Origin: Thaumarchaeota archaeon CSP1-1
Lineage (GTDB): Archaea > Thermoproteota > Nitrososphaeria > Nitrososphaerales > Nitrosopumilaceae
Assembly (NCBI GenBank): GCA_001443365.1
Contig: LDXL01000003.1
Coordinates: forward strand, 1-64,000
Length of the DNA: 64,000 nucleotides
Direction of reading: 5' to 3'
Part shown: positions 47,092 through 54,307 of the stretch, piece after piece
How positions within the stretch are numbered: the first letter of the stretch is position 1
How the letters are laid out: each line of letters starts with the position of its first letter
The notes under the pieces: generated by a model
What the model was told of the DNA's origin: nothing
Database searches by the model: none
What the model saw: the letters and a program-made list of their open reading frames with translations, nothing else
Program-made: the position numbers and the translations under genes

Positions 47092-47481
47092 GTGGGTACA
47101 GAAAATCTATCGTTTTGGAGTTTGTCGTCTGATAGATTTGGACATGTTTTGGAAAGAATCGGGAATCAAATTGGCAAAATAACCACTAATCTTGTTTCTA
47201 GTTCTTCTCCTATGACAACTGCCGATAAAGTAGGATTGGTTTTTACAATAATTGTTTTTAGTATAATACTTACTCCTATTGCGTTAAGTGATACTGATCC
47301 ATATCATCTCAAATGGATATTAGAAGAGGTAAAAGATAGCGTACCATTAATAGAGGATTTTTTGGGGAATCATGGTGATAGCCAGTATACTGTAATTATC
47401 CACCTGAAATCTTCACCTGAATCCCATTTAGATACTACAGAGAAGGTTATTCTAGGAAAATATAGAACTATAACAAATTAA
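47092..47481 (+). CDS. Single-pass membrane protein of unknown function
   Basis: 129 residues. The N-terminal 45 residues are polar and Ser-rich; one hydrophobic segment at about 48-66 (GLVFTIIVFSIILTPIAL) is followed by an acidic exterior-like region (ILEEVKDSVPLIEDFLG) and a short strand (YTVIIHLKSS). GTG start. Its 3' end overlaps the convergent arfC gene by 4 nt. Not recognised. Confidence 0.5.
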   Translation: MGTENLSFWSLSSDRFGHVLERIGNQIGKITTNLVSSSSPMTTADKVGLVFTIIVFSIILTPIALSDTDPYHLKWILEEVKDSVPLIEDFLGNHGDSQYTVIIHLKSSPESHLDTTEKVILGKYRTITN

Positions 47482-48128
47482 CTGTAATGTAAGACAATTT
47501 CGTTTCCTAACTGGCAAATTTTTTTCAATTTTAATTTTGTAGATTTATGAATATGAGAAAATCCTTCTCCTTCAACCAACGTAATGGCATTTTGTCCACC
47601 AACAAGATAGGGCGTAATTGTAACTATAAGCTCATCTACTAGTCCTAGTTTGATAAATTCCCAATTAACAGTACCACCACCTTCCACAAGAAGAGTTTTA
47701 ATTTTTTTCTTTGATAGAGACTTCAAAAGACTTTTGATGTTTACTCGATTTTTGCCTATTACCATTATCTCTAGTGGATGTTTCTTTAGTTTGGAAATAT
47801 TTTGTCTTGATGCTTTTTTAGAAACAGCTACTATTGTAGGGATTTTTTTACAAGTTCTAATAATTTGAGATTTTTGGTTGATAGTTGCCTTGGAATCCAA
47901 AACAATGCGTAATGGGTTTTTACCTTTAACATATCTGACTGTTAAAAGGGGATCATCTCTCTTTACCGTATTAGAACCAACCAAAATAGCATCTACTTTT
48001 GAGCGTAATATGTGAATTCGAACTTTATCTTGTTTTGAAGATAACTCAGAATCACCGGTCTTTGTGGCTATTTTTCCATCAAGACTCATTGCTGCGCTGA
48101 GAATCACTCTAGGTCTAGATTTTTCCAT
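47478..48128 (-). CDS. arfC: Diaminohydroxyphosphoribosylaminopyrimidine reductase, archaeal type
   Basis: NADPH-dependent reduction of the ribosyl group of 2,5-diamino-6-ribosylamino-4(3H)-pyrimidinone 5'-phosphate in riboflavin synthesis. About 216 residues with the RibD reductase fold: RPRVILSAAMSLDGKIATKT near the start, AILVGSNTVKRDDPLLTVR near 51, LVEGGGTVNWEFIK near 155 and VDELIVTITPYLVGG. No deaminase domain is fused, unlike bacterial RibD. Start at 48128 (MEKSRPRV) is preferred to one six codons earlier. Overlaps the amidohydrolase by 14 nt. Confidence 0.9.
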   Translation of the reverse strand: MEKSRPRVILSAAMSLDGKIATKTGDSELSSKQDKVRIHILRSKVDAILVGSNTVKRDDPLLTVRYVKGKNPLRIVLDSKATINQKSQIIRTCKKIPTIVAVSKKASRQNISKLKKHPLEIMVIGKNRVNIKSLLKSLSKKKIKTLLVEGGGTVNWEFIKLGLVDELIVTITPYLVGGQNAITLVEGEGFSHIHKSTKLKLKKICQLGNEIVLHYS

Positions 48129-49305
48129 GAACAATTTTTCCTCCAATCATTACTGCTCGAATTGTAGATTCACTAGCTCTATGTACAATTGAAGCATATG
48201 GATTATGCATTGGTTCTAAGTCTATTGCATGTTTGTCAATGAATACACAGTCTGCATATTTACCAATTTCAATGACGCCAATATTTTTTTGTAAAAGTTT
48301 TCCCGCATTTACTGTTGCCATCTTTAGAATTTGTTTTGGTGCAATTCTTTTACGATTCAAACCCATTGTAACTTTCCAGAGATAATCCATTTCGCGAAAC
48401 ATGTCAGGAGAATTTATCATTACATTATCTGTTCCAATTGCAATATTACAACCTGCATTGATCATACTTCCTGCATTAGGAATACCTTCTGCCAATGCAG
48501 AGTTTGCTCGTGGACAAATCACAATACCCCTAGTCTTCTTGGCAACTTGATGTAAATCTCTATGCGATGCATAGGTCATATGAACAAGAAAGTGAGGTTT
48601 TAACAATAATGCACGTTGTGTCTCAGTTTTTTTCATTGTTCTTTTTGATAGATTTGAGCTCTGAATTGTTTCTTCAGAATGGATAGCTTTAATCTTCGGA
48701 ATTCTGGAATAAAATTTTAGGAGAGAATTGCTGTTTTCGTTTGGTCCACTAATACCTAGTCCATCACAGTTTTTTAAAAGAGTGTCAAGTTCTGCTCTTT
48801 TTGAATTAGGAAATGAAATATTATTTCTAATTTGTTTATGATCTTGGTAATATTCTAGCCTTCCAAGTATAATGGATCTTATTGGCAAAGATGATAGTAC
48901 TTTTTTTAGAAGAAGTATTCCATCCAGTCCGCCTTCTCTAAAATCAACAAATGTTGTAGTACCATTTCTTATCATAGAAATGCATGTGTTTTTCATAAAA
49001 TTTGCAAGATGTGAGGGCTTTGATTCTGTTAGGATTTTTTGTTTCGCGCCTATAATAGGATGAATTTTTGCTTCAACATCGCTGTTTAATAAAATATCCT
49101 TTGCAATAGAGTCTCCTATGTGAGTATGTGAATTAATTAAACCTGGAATTACAATTAATCCTTCACAGTCAATTGAATCCTCTTTTGAGTTTGGTCTAAG
49201 GTTTGGTTTTATTTTTTTAAAAATTTCTTCAGAAACTTTCAGATTTGTAGAGGAAATAAAAGTTAATTCTTTACCGTAAAGGATGCTTGCATTTTTTAAA
49301 AGCAT
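48115..49305 (-). CDS. Amidohydrolase-superfamily enzyme inside the riboflavin operon
   Basis: 396 residues of the TrzN / SAH-deaminase-like branch. Active-site residues are intact: H60 and H62 (NSHTHIGDS), H209 and catalytic E212 (AIHSEE), H242 (LVHMTY) and D293 (GTDNVM), the pattern of mononuclear-metal deaminases. It lies between GTP cyclohydrolase III and ArfC and overlaps both. The archaeal route needs a formamide hydrolase (ArfB) and a pyrimidine deaminase, and neither is visible. Deamination of the 2,5-diamino-6-ribitylamino intermediate is the best guess, with formamide hydrolysis the alternative. Family certain, substrate inferred. Confidence 0.8.
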   Translation of the reverse strand: MLLKNASILYGKELTFISSTNLKVSEEIFKKIKPNLRPNSKEDSIDCEGLIVIPGLINSHTHIGDSIAKDILLNSDVEAKIHPIIGAKQKILTESKPSHLANFMKNTCISMIRNGTTTFVDFREGGLDGILLLKKVLSSLPIRSIILGRLEYYQDHKQIRNNISFPNSKRAELDTLLKNCDGLGISGPNENSNSLLKFYSRIPKIKAIHSEETIQSSNLSKRTMKKTETQRALLLKPHFLVHMTYASHRDLHQVAKKTRGIVICPRANSALAEGIPNAGSMINAGCNIAIGTDNVMINSPDMFREMDYLWKVTMGLNRKRIAPKQILKMATVNAGKLLQKNIGVIEIGKYADCVFIDKHAIDLEPMHNPYASIVHRASESTIRAVMIGGKIVHGKI

Positions 49306-50051
49306 GATGTTTCTACAATTTCTGGTTTTTCTTTTCCAGAATCGCGAATCTCCCTTATTTTATCAAGCGATTGTGTTGCTAGCTTGGCAGCCTCACGTGA
49401 GGTTTTTCCAATTCCAATCCCACAATTAAGTAATATACCAAGATCTTTTTTTGTTCTATCAATGAACTCCCTTGCCATTTCTTTTGCATCATCATTTGCA
49501 ACAACCATAAAATTATCACCACCCATAAAGAACGCCATTGATTTTCTATCTAAGAAAAATTCAGACATTAAGGAATATAGTTTAAACATTATTGAAGATA
49601 TTTCGTATGGAGATTTTGTTTTTCGTTTAGACGATAAATTATCTACATCAAAGTGCATAATAGTTACTTTCTGTTCAGAATATCCATTAACAAAACCATA
49701 GATATTATGTTCTTTGTTTAAAATTACTGGATATTGTTTTCCCTCGTAAGCTTTTAAATTTGCATCAAATGGGGTCTTAGCAAATCCAATAGACATTGAT
49801 AGTTTTAGTTCAAAGGATTCTTCGAGTTTTTTTTGAATTGAAATATGATCATCAAGAGTTAATCCATTAGTTACAACAAAAAACTCATCTGATCTGTTCA
49901 GAAATGCCAAACAATTTCTCTCAGAGAATAATTTTTGAACTTGTTTGTATAATGAGGCTTGAAACATTTGGAGTTCATGTTCTCTGTCGCTACCCAAAGT
50001 AAGTGTCCAAGGGCCATACTCATTGATTTTGATGATTGTGAGTTGAATCAA
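49296..50051 (-). CDS. arfA: GTP cyclohydrolase III (ArfA)
   Basis: Opens GTP to the formylated aminopyrimidine (FAPy) that begins archaeal riboflavin and F420 synthesis. The 251-residue protein begins MIQLTIIKINEYGPWT and has two ferredoxin-like/GGDEF-related halves, with IMHFDVDNLS near 130 carrying metal-binding aspartates and FFMGGDNFMVVAN near 173. Its start is 1 nt after ribH and it overlaps the amidohydrolase by 10 nt, so it is part of the rib operon. Bacterial RibA is not present. Confidence 0.92.
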   Translation of the reverse strand: MIQLTIIKINEYGPWTLTLGSDREHELQMFQASLYKQVQKLFSERNCLAFLNRSDEFFVVTNGLTLDDHISIQKKLEESFELKLSMSIGFAKTPFDANLKAYEGKQYPVILNKEHNIYGFVNGYSEQKVTIMHFDVDNLSSKRKTKSPYEISSIMFKLYSLMSEFFLDRKSMAFFMGGDNFMVVANDDAKEMAREFIDRTKKDLGILLNCGIGIGKTSREAAKLATQSLDKIREIRDSGKEKPEIVETSCF

Positions 50052-50052
50052 T

Positions 50053-50466
50053 TTACCTAATTTTTTCTAGTTCCTCTGAAATTTTCATTACTGCTTCTAC
50101 TGCCCTTTCTGAAACTGGTCTGATTCGTGCGTAAGCCTGTCTTTCTTCTATTCCAGGTCCTGTAATGCCTAATGAAACTGGTTTTTTGTGTTTTAATGAA
50201 AGTTTTGTAAGACGTGTTGCAGTAGCATTTGCAATTAGCTCATCATGTTTTGTCTGTCCTTTAATTACTGTCCCAAGTGTCACTACACCATCAACCTCTT
50301 TTTTTTCAAGTAATGTATCTATAATTAATGGCATATCAAAAATGCCAGGAACTTTACATGTGAATTTAACATTTAATTTAAGAGATTTTGCTTTTTCTAA
50401 AGCTACTTCTAGCATTCTAGATGTTACTTTGTCATTAAATTCTGATACCACTATTGCAATATTCAA
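50053..50466 (-). CDS. ribH: 6,7-dimethyl-8-ribityllumazine synthase
   Basis: Condenses the ribitylaminopyrimidine with dihydroxybutanone phosphate. The 137-residue protein has IAIVVSEFNDKVTSRML (substrate loop), CKVPGIFDMPLIID, VTLGTVIKGQTKHDE with the catalytic histidine, and GITGPGIEERQAYAR. It is likely to assemble as a capsid-like or pentameric complex. 2 nt after ribB, 1 nt before arfA. Confidence 0.95.
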   Translation of the reverse strand: MNIAIVVSEFNDKVTSRMLEVALEKAKSLKLNVKFTCKVPGIFDMPLIIDTLLEKKEVDGVVTLGTVIKGQTKHDELIANATATRLTKLSLKHKKPVSLGITGPGIEERQAYARIRPVSERAVEAVMKISEELEKIR

Positions 50467-50468
50467 AA

Positions 50469-51143
50469 TTAATGCACCTTGGCGTATTCTAACAATTCTT
50501 TGCCATCAATAAATGGAATGGCATTTTGTTTTGCATATTTTTTTGCTTTTTCCACTGAAAGGGCTGAATATGTTTCTGCATCCATCATTTCACAAATAGC
50601 AGATACAGGATTTAATTTAGCAAGGTCTGTCAAATAGATCGACATTTCGGTATGTCCACGTCTGTTTGAAAGTAAACCATTTGCAGCAATCAATAGAGGA
50701 ACATGTCCAGGTGTTTTAAATGATGAAATAAACTTGTTGTGTTGGTTATCTGCCTTGTGGAGATTTGCCATTTCACGAATAGTAAGGGCTCTATCTCGAT
50801 CAGTAATTCCCGTGTAAGTTTGATAATGGTTAATTGAGATTGAAAAAGTTGGATGATCCCCATATGGAGCTAATCCCATAATCATTTCCCTTGATTTTGA
50901 GTCAAAATGAGCAGAACTAGACAAAATGTCATGCATGTAATTAAGACCAAGCTCTTTCCCAAGAGAGCTGTTTATTGCAAGACATATCAAACCTCCTGCG
51001 TGCTGTCGCATTCGTGCGATGTGCTCTGGTGTAACAAACTCTGCTGCAACAACCATATCGATTTCATTTTCTCGTCCACTCGAATCATGAAGTAGTACAA
51101 ATTCACCTCTTTTTAGAGATGATAGTGCGTCATCAAGTGACAT
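50469..51143 (-). CDS. ribB: 3,4-dihydroxy-2-butanone-4-phosphate synthase
   Basis: Makes the four-carbon unit from ribulose 5-phosphate, releasing formate. The 224-residue monofunctional RibB has FVLLHDSSGRENEIDMV (metal-binding glutamate), GGLICLAI and the signature HTEMSIYLTDLAKLNPVSAI. No GTP cyclohydrolase II domain is fused. The promoter region directly upstream carries an 18-bp palindrome and TATA box. Confidence 0.95.
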   Translation of the reverse strand: MSLDDALSSLKRGEFVLLHDSSGRENEIDMVVAAEFVTPEHIARMRQHAGGLICLAINSSLGKELGLNYMHDILSSSAHFDSKSREMIMGLAPYGDHPTFSISINHYQTYTGITDRDRALTIREMANLHKADNQHNKFISSFKTPGHVPLLIAANGLLSNRRGHTEMSIYLTDLAKLNPVSAICEMMDAETYSALSVEKAKKYAKQNAIPFIDGKELLEYAKVH

Positions 51144-51214: not shown

Positions 51215-51805
51215 TTAGGTTTGTTTTAGAATGTATTTTCCTAAAATATCAGTTTCAATATTAATCTTGTCGCCCACTTTTTTTGATTGAAAGTTGGTAA
51301 TTTTGATTGTATGGGGGATTAAACAAACTGAAGCATTGTTTTTTGTGACATCAACTACTGTCAGACTTATCCCATCAATTGCGATAGATCCTTTTTTAAC
51401 AACAAATTTTACTAATTTTTTTGGAACTTCAAACCATACTTTGATTTCTTTAGGTTTTTTTTCAATTTTTTTTATTATTCCAACACCATCCACATGACCT
51501 AATACAAAGTGTCCTTCCATCCTATCACCTATTTTTAAGCTACGCTCAATGTTGACTTTGTCACCGGACACCAAGTTTCCAAGATCAGTTTTTTTTATCG
51601 TTTCATCAATCATCTCAAAATCACATTTATTTTTTGAAATTTTAGTAGCAGAAAGACATACACCATTTAATGCCACACTCTGTCCCACTTTGAGTCCTTT
51701 AGCATGCTTTCCTAAATCTACTGTCATCTGAAATGCACTACGATTTTTGGTATTTTGGCTAATTTTTTCTATTTTGCCTACGCCTTGAATTATTCCAGTG
51801 AACAT
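51215..51805 (-). CDS. ribE: Riboflavin synthase, bacterial alpha-chain type
   Basis: Dismutates two dimethylribityllumazines to riboflavin. The 196-residue protein has the two lumazine-binding beta-barrel repeats (about 1-95 and 96-190), each starting with GIIQGVGKIEKI-like or GHFVLGHVDGVGIIKKI sequences, with VGQSVALNGVCLS and KGSIAIDGISLTV. Many archaea use an unrelated RibC; here it is the bacterial type. It is upstream of ribB with 71 bp between, so it may have its own transcript or read through. Confidence 0.94.
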   Translation of the reverse strand: MFTGIIQGVGKIEKISQNTKNRSAFQMTVDLGKHAKGLKVGQSVALNGVCLSATKISKNKCDFEMIDETIKKTDLGNLVSGDKVNIERSLKIGDRMEGHFVLGHVDGVGIIKKIEKKPKEIKVWFEVPKKLVKFVVKKGSIAIDGISLTVVDVTKNNASVCLIPHTIKITNFQSKKVGDKINIETDILGKYILKQT

Positions 51806-51908
51806 AGATTGATTAATTTAATTCTGTATAAAAAGTATCAATTCGTATTGAAGATTTTTACACTACAAGATTCATCTGAAGAGTGTATTGGTTTCTGGTA
51901 CAAAACTT

Positions 51909-52760
51909 ATGGAAAAGATCCTTTATGGCGTTGCTAAACAATGGATTGCTGGAGAAACAATAGATGATGCTTTAGAATCTGTGAGAGATGCCTATAAGAA
52001 AGGTAGACATGCAATTGTAAACAAATTAGGAGAGTATCATACCTCTAAACCACTAATTATTAAAACAGTAAAAGAGTATCAACTAATTTCTTCATCATTT
52101 AGAAAATGGAAAGTAAGAGGCGCTATATCTGTCAAACCTACACAAGTAGGACTTTCAATAAGTAGAAAAGAATGTTTAAGAAATTTTGAAACAATTATTA
52201 AAAATGCTTCTTTATCACACACTTTTGTATGGATTGATATGGAATCTTCAGATCATACTGATGAAACTATAGAAATTTATCATAATCTATTTGCTAGGTA
52301 CGAAAGGTTAGGATTAGCGATTCAAGCAAATCTAAAGAGGACCAAAAATGATCTAATTGATTTACTTGAATATGGAGCAAAAATACGTCTAGTAAAAGGA
52401 GCATACAATGAGGATGGAAAGATTGCTTATAAATCAAAAAACAAGATTGATGAAAACTATCTAAGACTAATGAAGTTACTTTTTAGAGATGGAAATGAAT
52501 TTGGGATTGCAACTCATGATTCAAGCATGATTAATCAGGCAATACGACTTTCAAAAATATACGAACGTAAATTTGAATTTCAGATGCTCAAAGGAATTCG
52601 TGATGAGCTAAAGCCCGATCTTGCCAGAAAGGGATTTGTTGTATCTGATTATATTCCCTATGGAACAAATTGGCTTCCTTATTCTATTCGTAGAGTAAAG
52701 GAAAGAAAACGAAATATCTTACTTCTTGGAAGCTCTTTTATTCAATCACATCGAGTTTGA
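51909..52760 (+). CDS. Proline dehydrogenase
   Basis: FAD enzyme oxidising proline to pyrroline-5-carboxylate. About 283 residues from the ATG at 51909 (MEKILYGVAKQW), as a TIM barrel: GAISVKPTQVGLSI, FVWIDMESSDHTDET, AIQANLKRTKNDL, IRLVKGAYNEDG, GIATHDSSM, FEFQMLKGIRDEL and PYGTNWLPYSIRRVKER. It is the short monofunctional type. The reading frame extends back to 51888. Its end overlaps the P5C dehydrogenase gene on the other strand by 19 bp. Confidence 0.92.
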   Translation: MEKILYGVAKQWIAGETIDDALESVRDAYKKGRHAIVNKLGEYHTSKPLIIKTVKEYQLISSSFRKWKVRGAISVKPTQVGLSISRKECLRNFETIIKNASLSHTFVWIDMESSDHTDETIEIYHNLFARYERLGLAIQANLKRTKNDLIDLLEYGAKIRLVKGAYNEDGKIAYKSKNKIDENYLRLMKLLFRDGNEFGIATHDSSMINQAIRLSKIYERKFEFQMLKGIRDELKPDLARKGFVVSDYIPYGTNWLPYSIRRVKERKRNILLLGSSFIQSHRV

Positions 52761-54307
52761 GTCTGGGCTCGCATAAATTGTTGTAGATAGTTTTCACCAC
52801 CGGCTCCCTTTCCTGTAGATCCGGAATGTTTCCAACCAACAAATGGTTGACTGCGTACTAAAGCTGCAGTTGTAGCACTCGCTGCTCTATTTGCATACAC
52901 TGTACCTGCTTGAATTTTATCAAAAAAATCATCAACTTGTTTTTTGTCATCACTAAATATTCCAGCCGTCAAACCATATTCAGATTGGTTTGCAAGATTT
53001 ATTGCTTCATCAAAATCGTCATACTGGTCTATGCATAGAAAAGGCAAAAACAATTCTTCCTTCATTAATTTATGATCTCTTGGAAGTTTTGTGACTATAG
53101 TAGGAGTAACATAGTAACCATTTTGATGCTGAGAATCATTCAAAATAGTTCCTCCTACAAGAATTTCTCCATCTTTTTTAGCTAATTCTACTGCTGCTTC
53201 GAATTTTTTCTTTGCAGCCTCATTGATAACAGGTCCCAAAAAAACATCTCTTTTCCAAGGAAGTCCAATTTTAAGTGATTTTGTTTTCTCTATTAGCTTT
53301 TCAATGAATTTATCTGCAATCTCTTTTTGTACGTAGACCCTAGAGCATGCACTACATTTTTGTCCTCCATATCCAAATGCAGCTCTCATAACTCCATCTG
53401 TTGCCTTTTCAAGATTCGCATGTTTTGTAACGATAGTTGGATTTTTTCCTCCCATCTCAGAAATGAATGGTTTGGTTTCATTTTGAGTGAAAGTTTTGTA
53501 TCCAGACATTCCTACTTCTCTCGAACCAGTAAATGCAATTCCATCAACATCTGGGCTTTCTATGAGAGTCTTACCCACGACACTTCCAGGCCCTGTTACA
53601 AAGTTAATGGCTCCAGCTGGTAACTTCTTGTAAATTGCGTTTACAAATTCAAATGAAGAAAGTGGAGTGTCACTAGCAGGTTTTAAGACTGTTGTGTTTC
53701 CTGTAATTAAAGCTCCAGTAGTCATTCCGATTGCTATAGCTGATGGAAAATTAAAGGGAGCAATAATCCCCCATACCCCATATGGTTTAAGGATGGTTCG
53801 AGTTTTTTCTTTTGGATTAGGATGTTCAGTTTCTTTTGAAAATCCTTTATTAATTTCCAATTGATAAGCATAAAATCTCATAAAGTCAATTGCTTCATCA
53901 ACATCTCCCATAGCTTCGATTCTGGTTTTTCCATTTTCAAAGGACATAATTGCTGATAGACGAAATTTTTGTTTTGAAAACAAGTCAGCACATTCTTTGA
54001 AAATTTTTGCTCTAGTTTGATATGGAGTATTACTCCATTCAAAGAATGCATCCTTTGCTGATTTTATAGCATTATTGGTATCATTCGCGGTTCCTTTGGG
54101 AAACTTAGCAACAATAATTGTCGTATCAGATGGCGATTTTACTTCAAATTGTATTTTAGAAAAAATTTCTTTCCCGTTAATTATTAAAGGATATTCTTTG
54201 TTTAAATTATTTTTTACTTGTTCAACTGCTTTTTCAAATTGTTCATGAAATACATCAGTTGCATTATTTGCTATTGCATTTCCCCATGTGAATTCATTTT
54301 CAAACAT
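52742..54307 (-). CDS. 1-pyrroline-5-carboxylate dehydrogenase
   Basis: NAD-dependent oxidation of glutamate semialdehyde to glutamate, completing proline breakdown. The 521-residue aldehyde dehydrogenase has WGIIAPFNFPSAIAIGM near 184, VLKPASDTPLSS, the GSREVGMSGY cofactor loop, the general base in PFISEMGGKN, the catalytic cysteine in GQKCSACSRVYV and the C-terminal QPFVGWKHSGSTG. The next gene on the other strand is proline dehydrogenase, converging by 19 bp. Confidence 0.92.
   Translation of the reverse strand: MFENEFTWGNAIANNATDVFHEQFEKAVEQVKNNLNKEYPLIINGKEIFSKIQFEVKSPSDTTIIVAKFPKGTANDTNNAIKSAKDAFFEWSNTPYQTRAKIFKECADLFSKQKFRLSAIMSFENGKTRIEAMGDVDEAIDFMRFYAYQLEINKGFSKETEHPNPKEKTRTILKPYGVWGIIAPFNFPSAIAIGMTTGALITGNTTVLKPASDTPLSSFEFVNAIYKKLPAGAINFVTGPGSVVGKTLIESPDVDGIAFTGSREVGMSGYKTFTQNETKPFISEMGGKNPTIVTKHANLEKATDGVMRAAFGYGGQKCSACSRVYVQKEIADKFIEKLIEKTKSLKIGLPWKRDVFLGPVINEAAKKKFEAAVELAKKDGEILVGGTILNDSQHQNGYYVTPTIVTKLPRDHKLMKEELFLPFLCIDQYDDFDEAINLANQSEYGLTAGIFSDDKKQVDDFFDKIQAGTVYANRAASATTAALVRSQPFVGWKHSGSTGKGAGGENYLQQFMRAQTQTRCD

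Follow-up and report, generated by a model that had tools for sequence, protein, structure and literature searches.

Which protein carries out the deamination step of riboflavin synthesis in Archaea? The reactions of the pathway are known, and in bacteria and fungi the deamination is the work of an unrelated protein. The question is raised by a stretch of 64,000 nucleotides from Thaumarchaeota archaeon CSP1-1, of the ammonia-oxidizing type (contig LDXL01000003.1, positions 1 to 64,000; hereafter the window), where an open reading frame for an amidohydrolase-superfamily protein (48115 to 49305, minus strand, 396 amino acids) lies within the riboflavin cluster. The original prediction offered two roles for this protein, the unassigned pyrimidine deaminase or a non-orthologous replacement for the hydrolase ArfB. 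Here, we report the gene, its operon, conservation, fold class, catalytic layout and phyletic pattern as computed, and we predict with good confidence that its product is the pyrimidine deaminase common to the archaeal riboflavin and F420 pathways.

The cluster is ordered ribE-ribB-ribH-arfA-amidohydrolase-arfC, with all genes on the minus strand. The first gene, ribE (riboflavin synthase; 51215 to 51805), scored 215 bits with TIGR00187, above the cut-off, and matched Lum_binding; it is followed by ribB (50469 to 51143; TIGR00506 above cut-off, PF00926), ribH (lumazine synthase; 50053 to 50466; TIGR00114 above cut-off, PF00885) and arfA (GTP cyclohydrolase III; 49296 to 50051; PF05165, 163 bits). 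As originally predicted, the amidohydrolase gene sits inside the operon and overlaps arfA by 10 nucleotides and arfC by 14, and both overlaps were read directly in the sequence: its 5′ end is ATGCTTTTAA, in which the TAA is the arfA stop codon, and its 3′ end is ATGGAAAAATCTAG, which contains the arfC ATG. The arfC gene (47478 to 48128; TIGR01508 archaeal reductase, above cut-off) could also begin further upstream (TTG at 48146). Its 222-amino-acid product, the reductase, consisted of RibD_C alone in profile searches, in agreement with the earlier reading that this ArfC has no deaminase domain. Just past ribE (51888 to 54307), the window holds a convergent pair, a proline dehydrogenase gene (plus strand) and an aldehyde-dehydrogenase-like gene (minus strand).

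The gene lies between arfA and arfC in 24 of 24 sampled genomes of the same family, in the order ribB-ribH-arfA-gene-arfC. Among 80 loci of the genome collection, arfC lay on the same strand and no more than 300 bp away in 71, arfA in 69, and one or the other in 74; the linked loci came from Nitrosopumilales, Nitrosotalea, Nitrososphaerales, Hecatellales, one Bathyarchaeote (L037) and two Asgard lineages (L069 and L072). Homologues from other families in the phylum have diverged (about 25 to 37% identity where measured) and have kept their linkage to rib genes: to arfC in families f33, f14, f31 and f27; to ribH-arfA, and mostly also ribB-ribC, in f18; to ribB-ribC-ribH in f15, where arfC and arfA head the same cluster; to arfA in f30; and to ribB/ribC in f3. 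Genes for the F420 precursor belong to the same picture, as the amidohydrolase gene stands directly upstream of cofG and cofH at two Bathyarchaeota loci and cofH adjoins the homologue in f31. Linkage to riboflavin and F420-precursor genes thus extends beyond one genus. The substrate of CofH is 5-amino-6-ribitylaminouracil, which is also the dephosphorylated product of the proposed deamination. An enzyme of nucleoside or base salvage is hard put to explain the linkage to cofG and cofH, and a role as ArfB would account for it only as an upstream step.

There are exceptions to this pattern. The copy in families f9, f21 and f11 is diverged and stands away from rib genes, and a few ArfC-bearing genomes (in f2, f22 and f34) gave no recognizable amidohydrolase match, so that either another deaminase must act there or the ArfC-like gene is something else. 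Relatives were also found with no rib genes nearby on contigs labelled Acidimicrobiia/Acidimicrobiales and Gemmatimonadetes (L096:5004-6269, L075:270-1535 and L088:221-1492). At L096, the neighbors are hydantoinase, CaiB-type CoA-transferase, amidase and LLM oxidoreductase genes, which suggests a catabolic offshoot; the wider family is therefore not of a single function. Two further contigs with bacterial labels (L050 and L077; bacterium ES-bin-123 and Phycisphaerae) hold a complete or partial thaumarchaeal riboflavin cluster and are therefore likely misbinned or mislabelled. In a groundwater archaeon (L055:4989-6206; G151:C142:5814-6989), the homologue has one in-frame TGA, from sequencing error, decay or recoding.

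In the CSP1-1 genome (1.36 Mb, 98% complete), a single RibD_C gene was found, and searches returned no GTP cyclohydrolase II and no RibD-type deaminase. A RibD deaminase elsewhere in the genome had been named in advance as evidence against the prediction; the sole PF00383 protein is ComEB/dCMP-deaminase-like. This protein has the cytidine-deaminase fold of RibD and Rib2 and could in principle perform the deamination, leaving the amidohydrolase some other pathway role, but no rib gene was seen in the stretch around its gene, and M. jannaschii and S. acidocaldarius, both with riboflavin pathway genes, gave no PF00383 match at all. We regard this reading as barely credible. Across the phylum, a fused RibD exceeded the model cut-off in 0 of 151 genomes. 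In one Helarchaeota genome, a RibD-deaminase-like domain was seen within a 1006-amino-acid open frame (G153:C5:907424-907849).

Where the amidohydrolase match is strong, the reductase is present too: ArfC occurs in each of the 45 genomes that scored 110 bits or more, and ArfA went undetected in three of them (G097, G103 and G018), so the amidohydrolase tracks the reductase and not the cyclohydrolase. These 45 genomes are related to one another and do not represent 45 independent events; it is better to count by family. Of the 14 named control genomes, the four archaea and no others matched the amidohydrolase family NF005552 at E ≤ 1e-50 (M. jannaschii, H. volcanii, S. acidocaldarius and M. acetivorans), and RibD exceeded its cut-off in ten, which we take as the bacteria because PF00925 matched in exactly those ten. 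The amidohydrolase is thus complementary to RibD-type deaminases, both in the controls and in the phylum.

The protein belongs to Amidohydro_1 (PF01979) and to NF005552/PRK07213, named "chlorohydrolase" (320 bits against a curated cut-off of 294, over positions 2 to 377 of 382). Its AlphaFold model (pLDDT, 94.4) gave, as best Foldseek matches in the PDB, SAH/adenosine deaminases, AtzA/TrzN, the isocytosine deaminase Vcz and guanine deaminases. With a Foldseek probability of 1.00 to deaminases and the motifs HxH, H, HxxE, H and D on a TIM barrel (by Pfam and Foldseek), it has the layout of the mononuclear deaminases of the amidohydrolase superfamily and lies outside the cytidine-deaminase fold of RibD/Rib2. 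The six residues first picked out as the mononuclear-metal deaminase layout (H60, H62, H209, E212, H242 and D293) were invariant in 38 aligned relatives and, in a wider set, in all 34 members of the clade, which upholds that assignment. We propose H60, H62, H209 and D293 as metal ligands and E212 and H242 as general acid/base.

The best PDB matches by sequence and by fold are thus enzymes of the SAH/MTA, 5′-deoxyadenosine or guanine deaminase type, as would be expected of a salvage deaminase that stands in the operon by chance. We judge such a role unlikely. The protein scored far below the cut-offs of the corresponding models, with 69.5 bits against 779 for SAH/MTA deaminase, 104.8 against 522 for 5′-deoxyadenosine deaminase (NF005557) and 65.8 against 375.4 for guanine deaminase (TIGR02967). 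In the tree, its family forms a group apart from 11 SAH-deaminase-like paralogs of the same phylum (support, 100/100), and it has the diagnostic residues D65, K88, E124 and N294; the usual residues of the paralogs at these positions are M, E, P and G/S. K88 stands at the Glu column of the WPxE motif of SAH deaminase, in which the Glu binds the ribose hydroxyls; a lysine there would suit a phosphorylated ribityl chain. Genomes of family f18 have both proteins, an SAH-deaminase-type paralog away from rib genes and the amidohydrolase beside arfA. An adenine-deaminase-like protein of 586 amino acids (387 bits against a cut-off of 472.5) is encoded elsewhere in the window, in the region matching G000:C3:23675-24532.

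The second proposed role was that of a non-orthologous ArfB, which would remove formate from the ArfA product (the FAPy nucleotide). The overlap with arfA speaks for it, and the original prediction saw no creatininase-like ArfB. This holds within the window, but the genome has a single creatininase-family gene (G000:C4:166607-167263; L002:1474-2205). The models leave its product unnamed, since it scored below both cut-offs, with 40 bits for ArfB (cut-off, 180) and a better 134 bits for MftE (cut-off, 172), a result that also leaves some room for the amidohydrolase as ArfB. Against this, each of the 24 genomes of the same family has a single creatininase-family gene, and among the 59 sampled genomes with ArfA, 58 have a creatininase-family gene. 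Its relatives adjoin arfA in f9 (L130 and L131) and f27 (L132), and a further creatininase-like open reading frame adjoins the amidohydrolase at L122. From their position beside arfA and their presence in the ArfA-bearing genomes, the creatininase-family protein is the better ArfB candidate and is probably ArfB, although its nearest models are MftE and creatininase.

The amidohydrolase itself did not match the ArfB model (NF033501, creatininase fold); it has an active site of deaminase type and is found with arfC where arfA is lacking (genomes G103 and G018). ArfB is biochemically established in M. jannaschii (Grochowski 2009, reference 4 of PMC9478397), which also has a strong member of NF005552. 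We therefore hold the ArfB role to be unlikely and drop that half of the original prediction. An ArfB homologue elsewhere in the genome had been named in advance as counterevidence; the creatininase-family gene bears on that half only.

The role as pyrimidine deaminase stands, in accord with the conserved context, the co-occurrence with ArfC, the lack of RibD-type deaminases, the fold and active site of an aromatic-base deaminase and the linkage to cofG/cofH. The reductase acts ahead of the deaminase in Archaea (Graupner et al. 2002, reference 246 in PMC8305020), and the expected substrate is therefore the ribityl product of ArfC, 2,5-diamino-6-ribitylamino-4(3H)-pyrimidinone 5′-phosphate. We infer substrate, chemistry and metal as follows. 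One divalent metal, bound by H60, H62, H209 and D293, would activate a water molecule for attack on C2 of the isocytosine-type ring; E212 and H242 would shuttle protons, and ammonia would leave. The product would be 5-amino-6-ribitylaminouracil 5′-phosphate, which after dephosphorylation would pass to RibH for riboflavin and to CofG/CofH for the F420 precursor. The TIM-barrel enzyme would thereby replace the unrelated cytidine-deaminase-fold domain of RibD/Rib2.

If this is true, the gap would be filled for ammonia-oxidizing archaea, Sulfolobales-like lineages, Bathyarchaeota and some Asgard lineages, and Archaea on one side and bacteria and fungi on the other would clearly exemplify how unrelated folds can serve the same reaction. 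On balance, we favor the wider view that most Archaea use this unrelated amidohydrolase, and not a cytidine-deaminase-fold enzyme, for riboflavin and F420, coupled to the reductase by overlapping genes. The operon is itself a ready enzyme set for a single-tube test. The assignment may also correct two misleading labels, "chlorohydrolase" and "cytosine deaminase". The second has entered discussions of nitrogen scavenging: in sponge ammonia oxidizers, genes for a creatininase (PF02633) and a "cytosine deaminase" (COG0402) have been read as possible creatinine use (PMC7848895). We infer that this COG0402 gene is the amidohydrolase of the riboflavin cluster, and the two sponge genes may be ArfB and the proposed deaminase.

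Among known systems, HVO_2483/MJ0699 has been predicted for this pathway position. A 2021 review (PMC8305020) counts three gaps among the riboflavin enzymes of Haloferax, two of them with predicted candidates; its Table 6 gives HVO_2483 as 34% identical to MJ0699, credits the prediction to Rodionova et al. 2017 and has the entry follow arfC and precede the phosphatase gap. These proteins are predicted for the same gap as our amidohydrolase and are probably of the same family. As M. jannaschii and H. volcanii both carry strong NF005552 members, a deaminase role has probably already been proposed in print, on computational grounds, for euryarchaea, and the protein is probably the putative non-homologous replacement for the RibD/Rib2 deaminase predicted before; HVO_2483/MJ0699 are euryarchaeal, whereas the gene described here belongs to a thaumarchaeal operon. 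A literature search for MJ0699 and HVO_2483 returned only this review, and no biochemical proof of an archaeal deaminase at this step was found in the literature searched. NF005552/PRK07213, which the protein matches from end to end with a score above the curated cut-off and which among the controls had strong matches only in archaea, has no assigned pathway step, unlike the role proposed here, and its name appears to be inherited from distant similarity.

SAH/MTA deaminases (TM0936, 4dyk and 4gbd) have the same fold and the same metal and catalytic layout, but belong to the other group of the tree, and the amidohydrolase differs from them in Lys for Glu at 88 and Asn for Gly/Ser at 294, beside the D65 and E124 that replace mostly Met and Pro of the SAH-deaminase-like paralogs. 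The isocytosine deaminase Vcz (7ww2 and 8is4) and guanine deaminase share the fold (TM-score, about 0.8) and cleave the 2-amino group from an isocytosine-type ring, the same type of bond as in the proposed reaction; they are only ~16 to 21% identical to the amidohydrolase, take free bases as substrates and lie outside vitamin synthesis. The bacterial RibD N-domain and fungal Rib2 would share the proposed kind of reaction and have the same reductase family as partner, but theirs is the cytidine-deaminase fold and this is a TIM-barrel amidohydrolase, and the two are not homologous.
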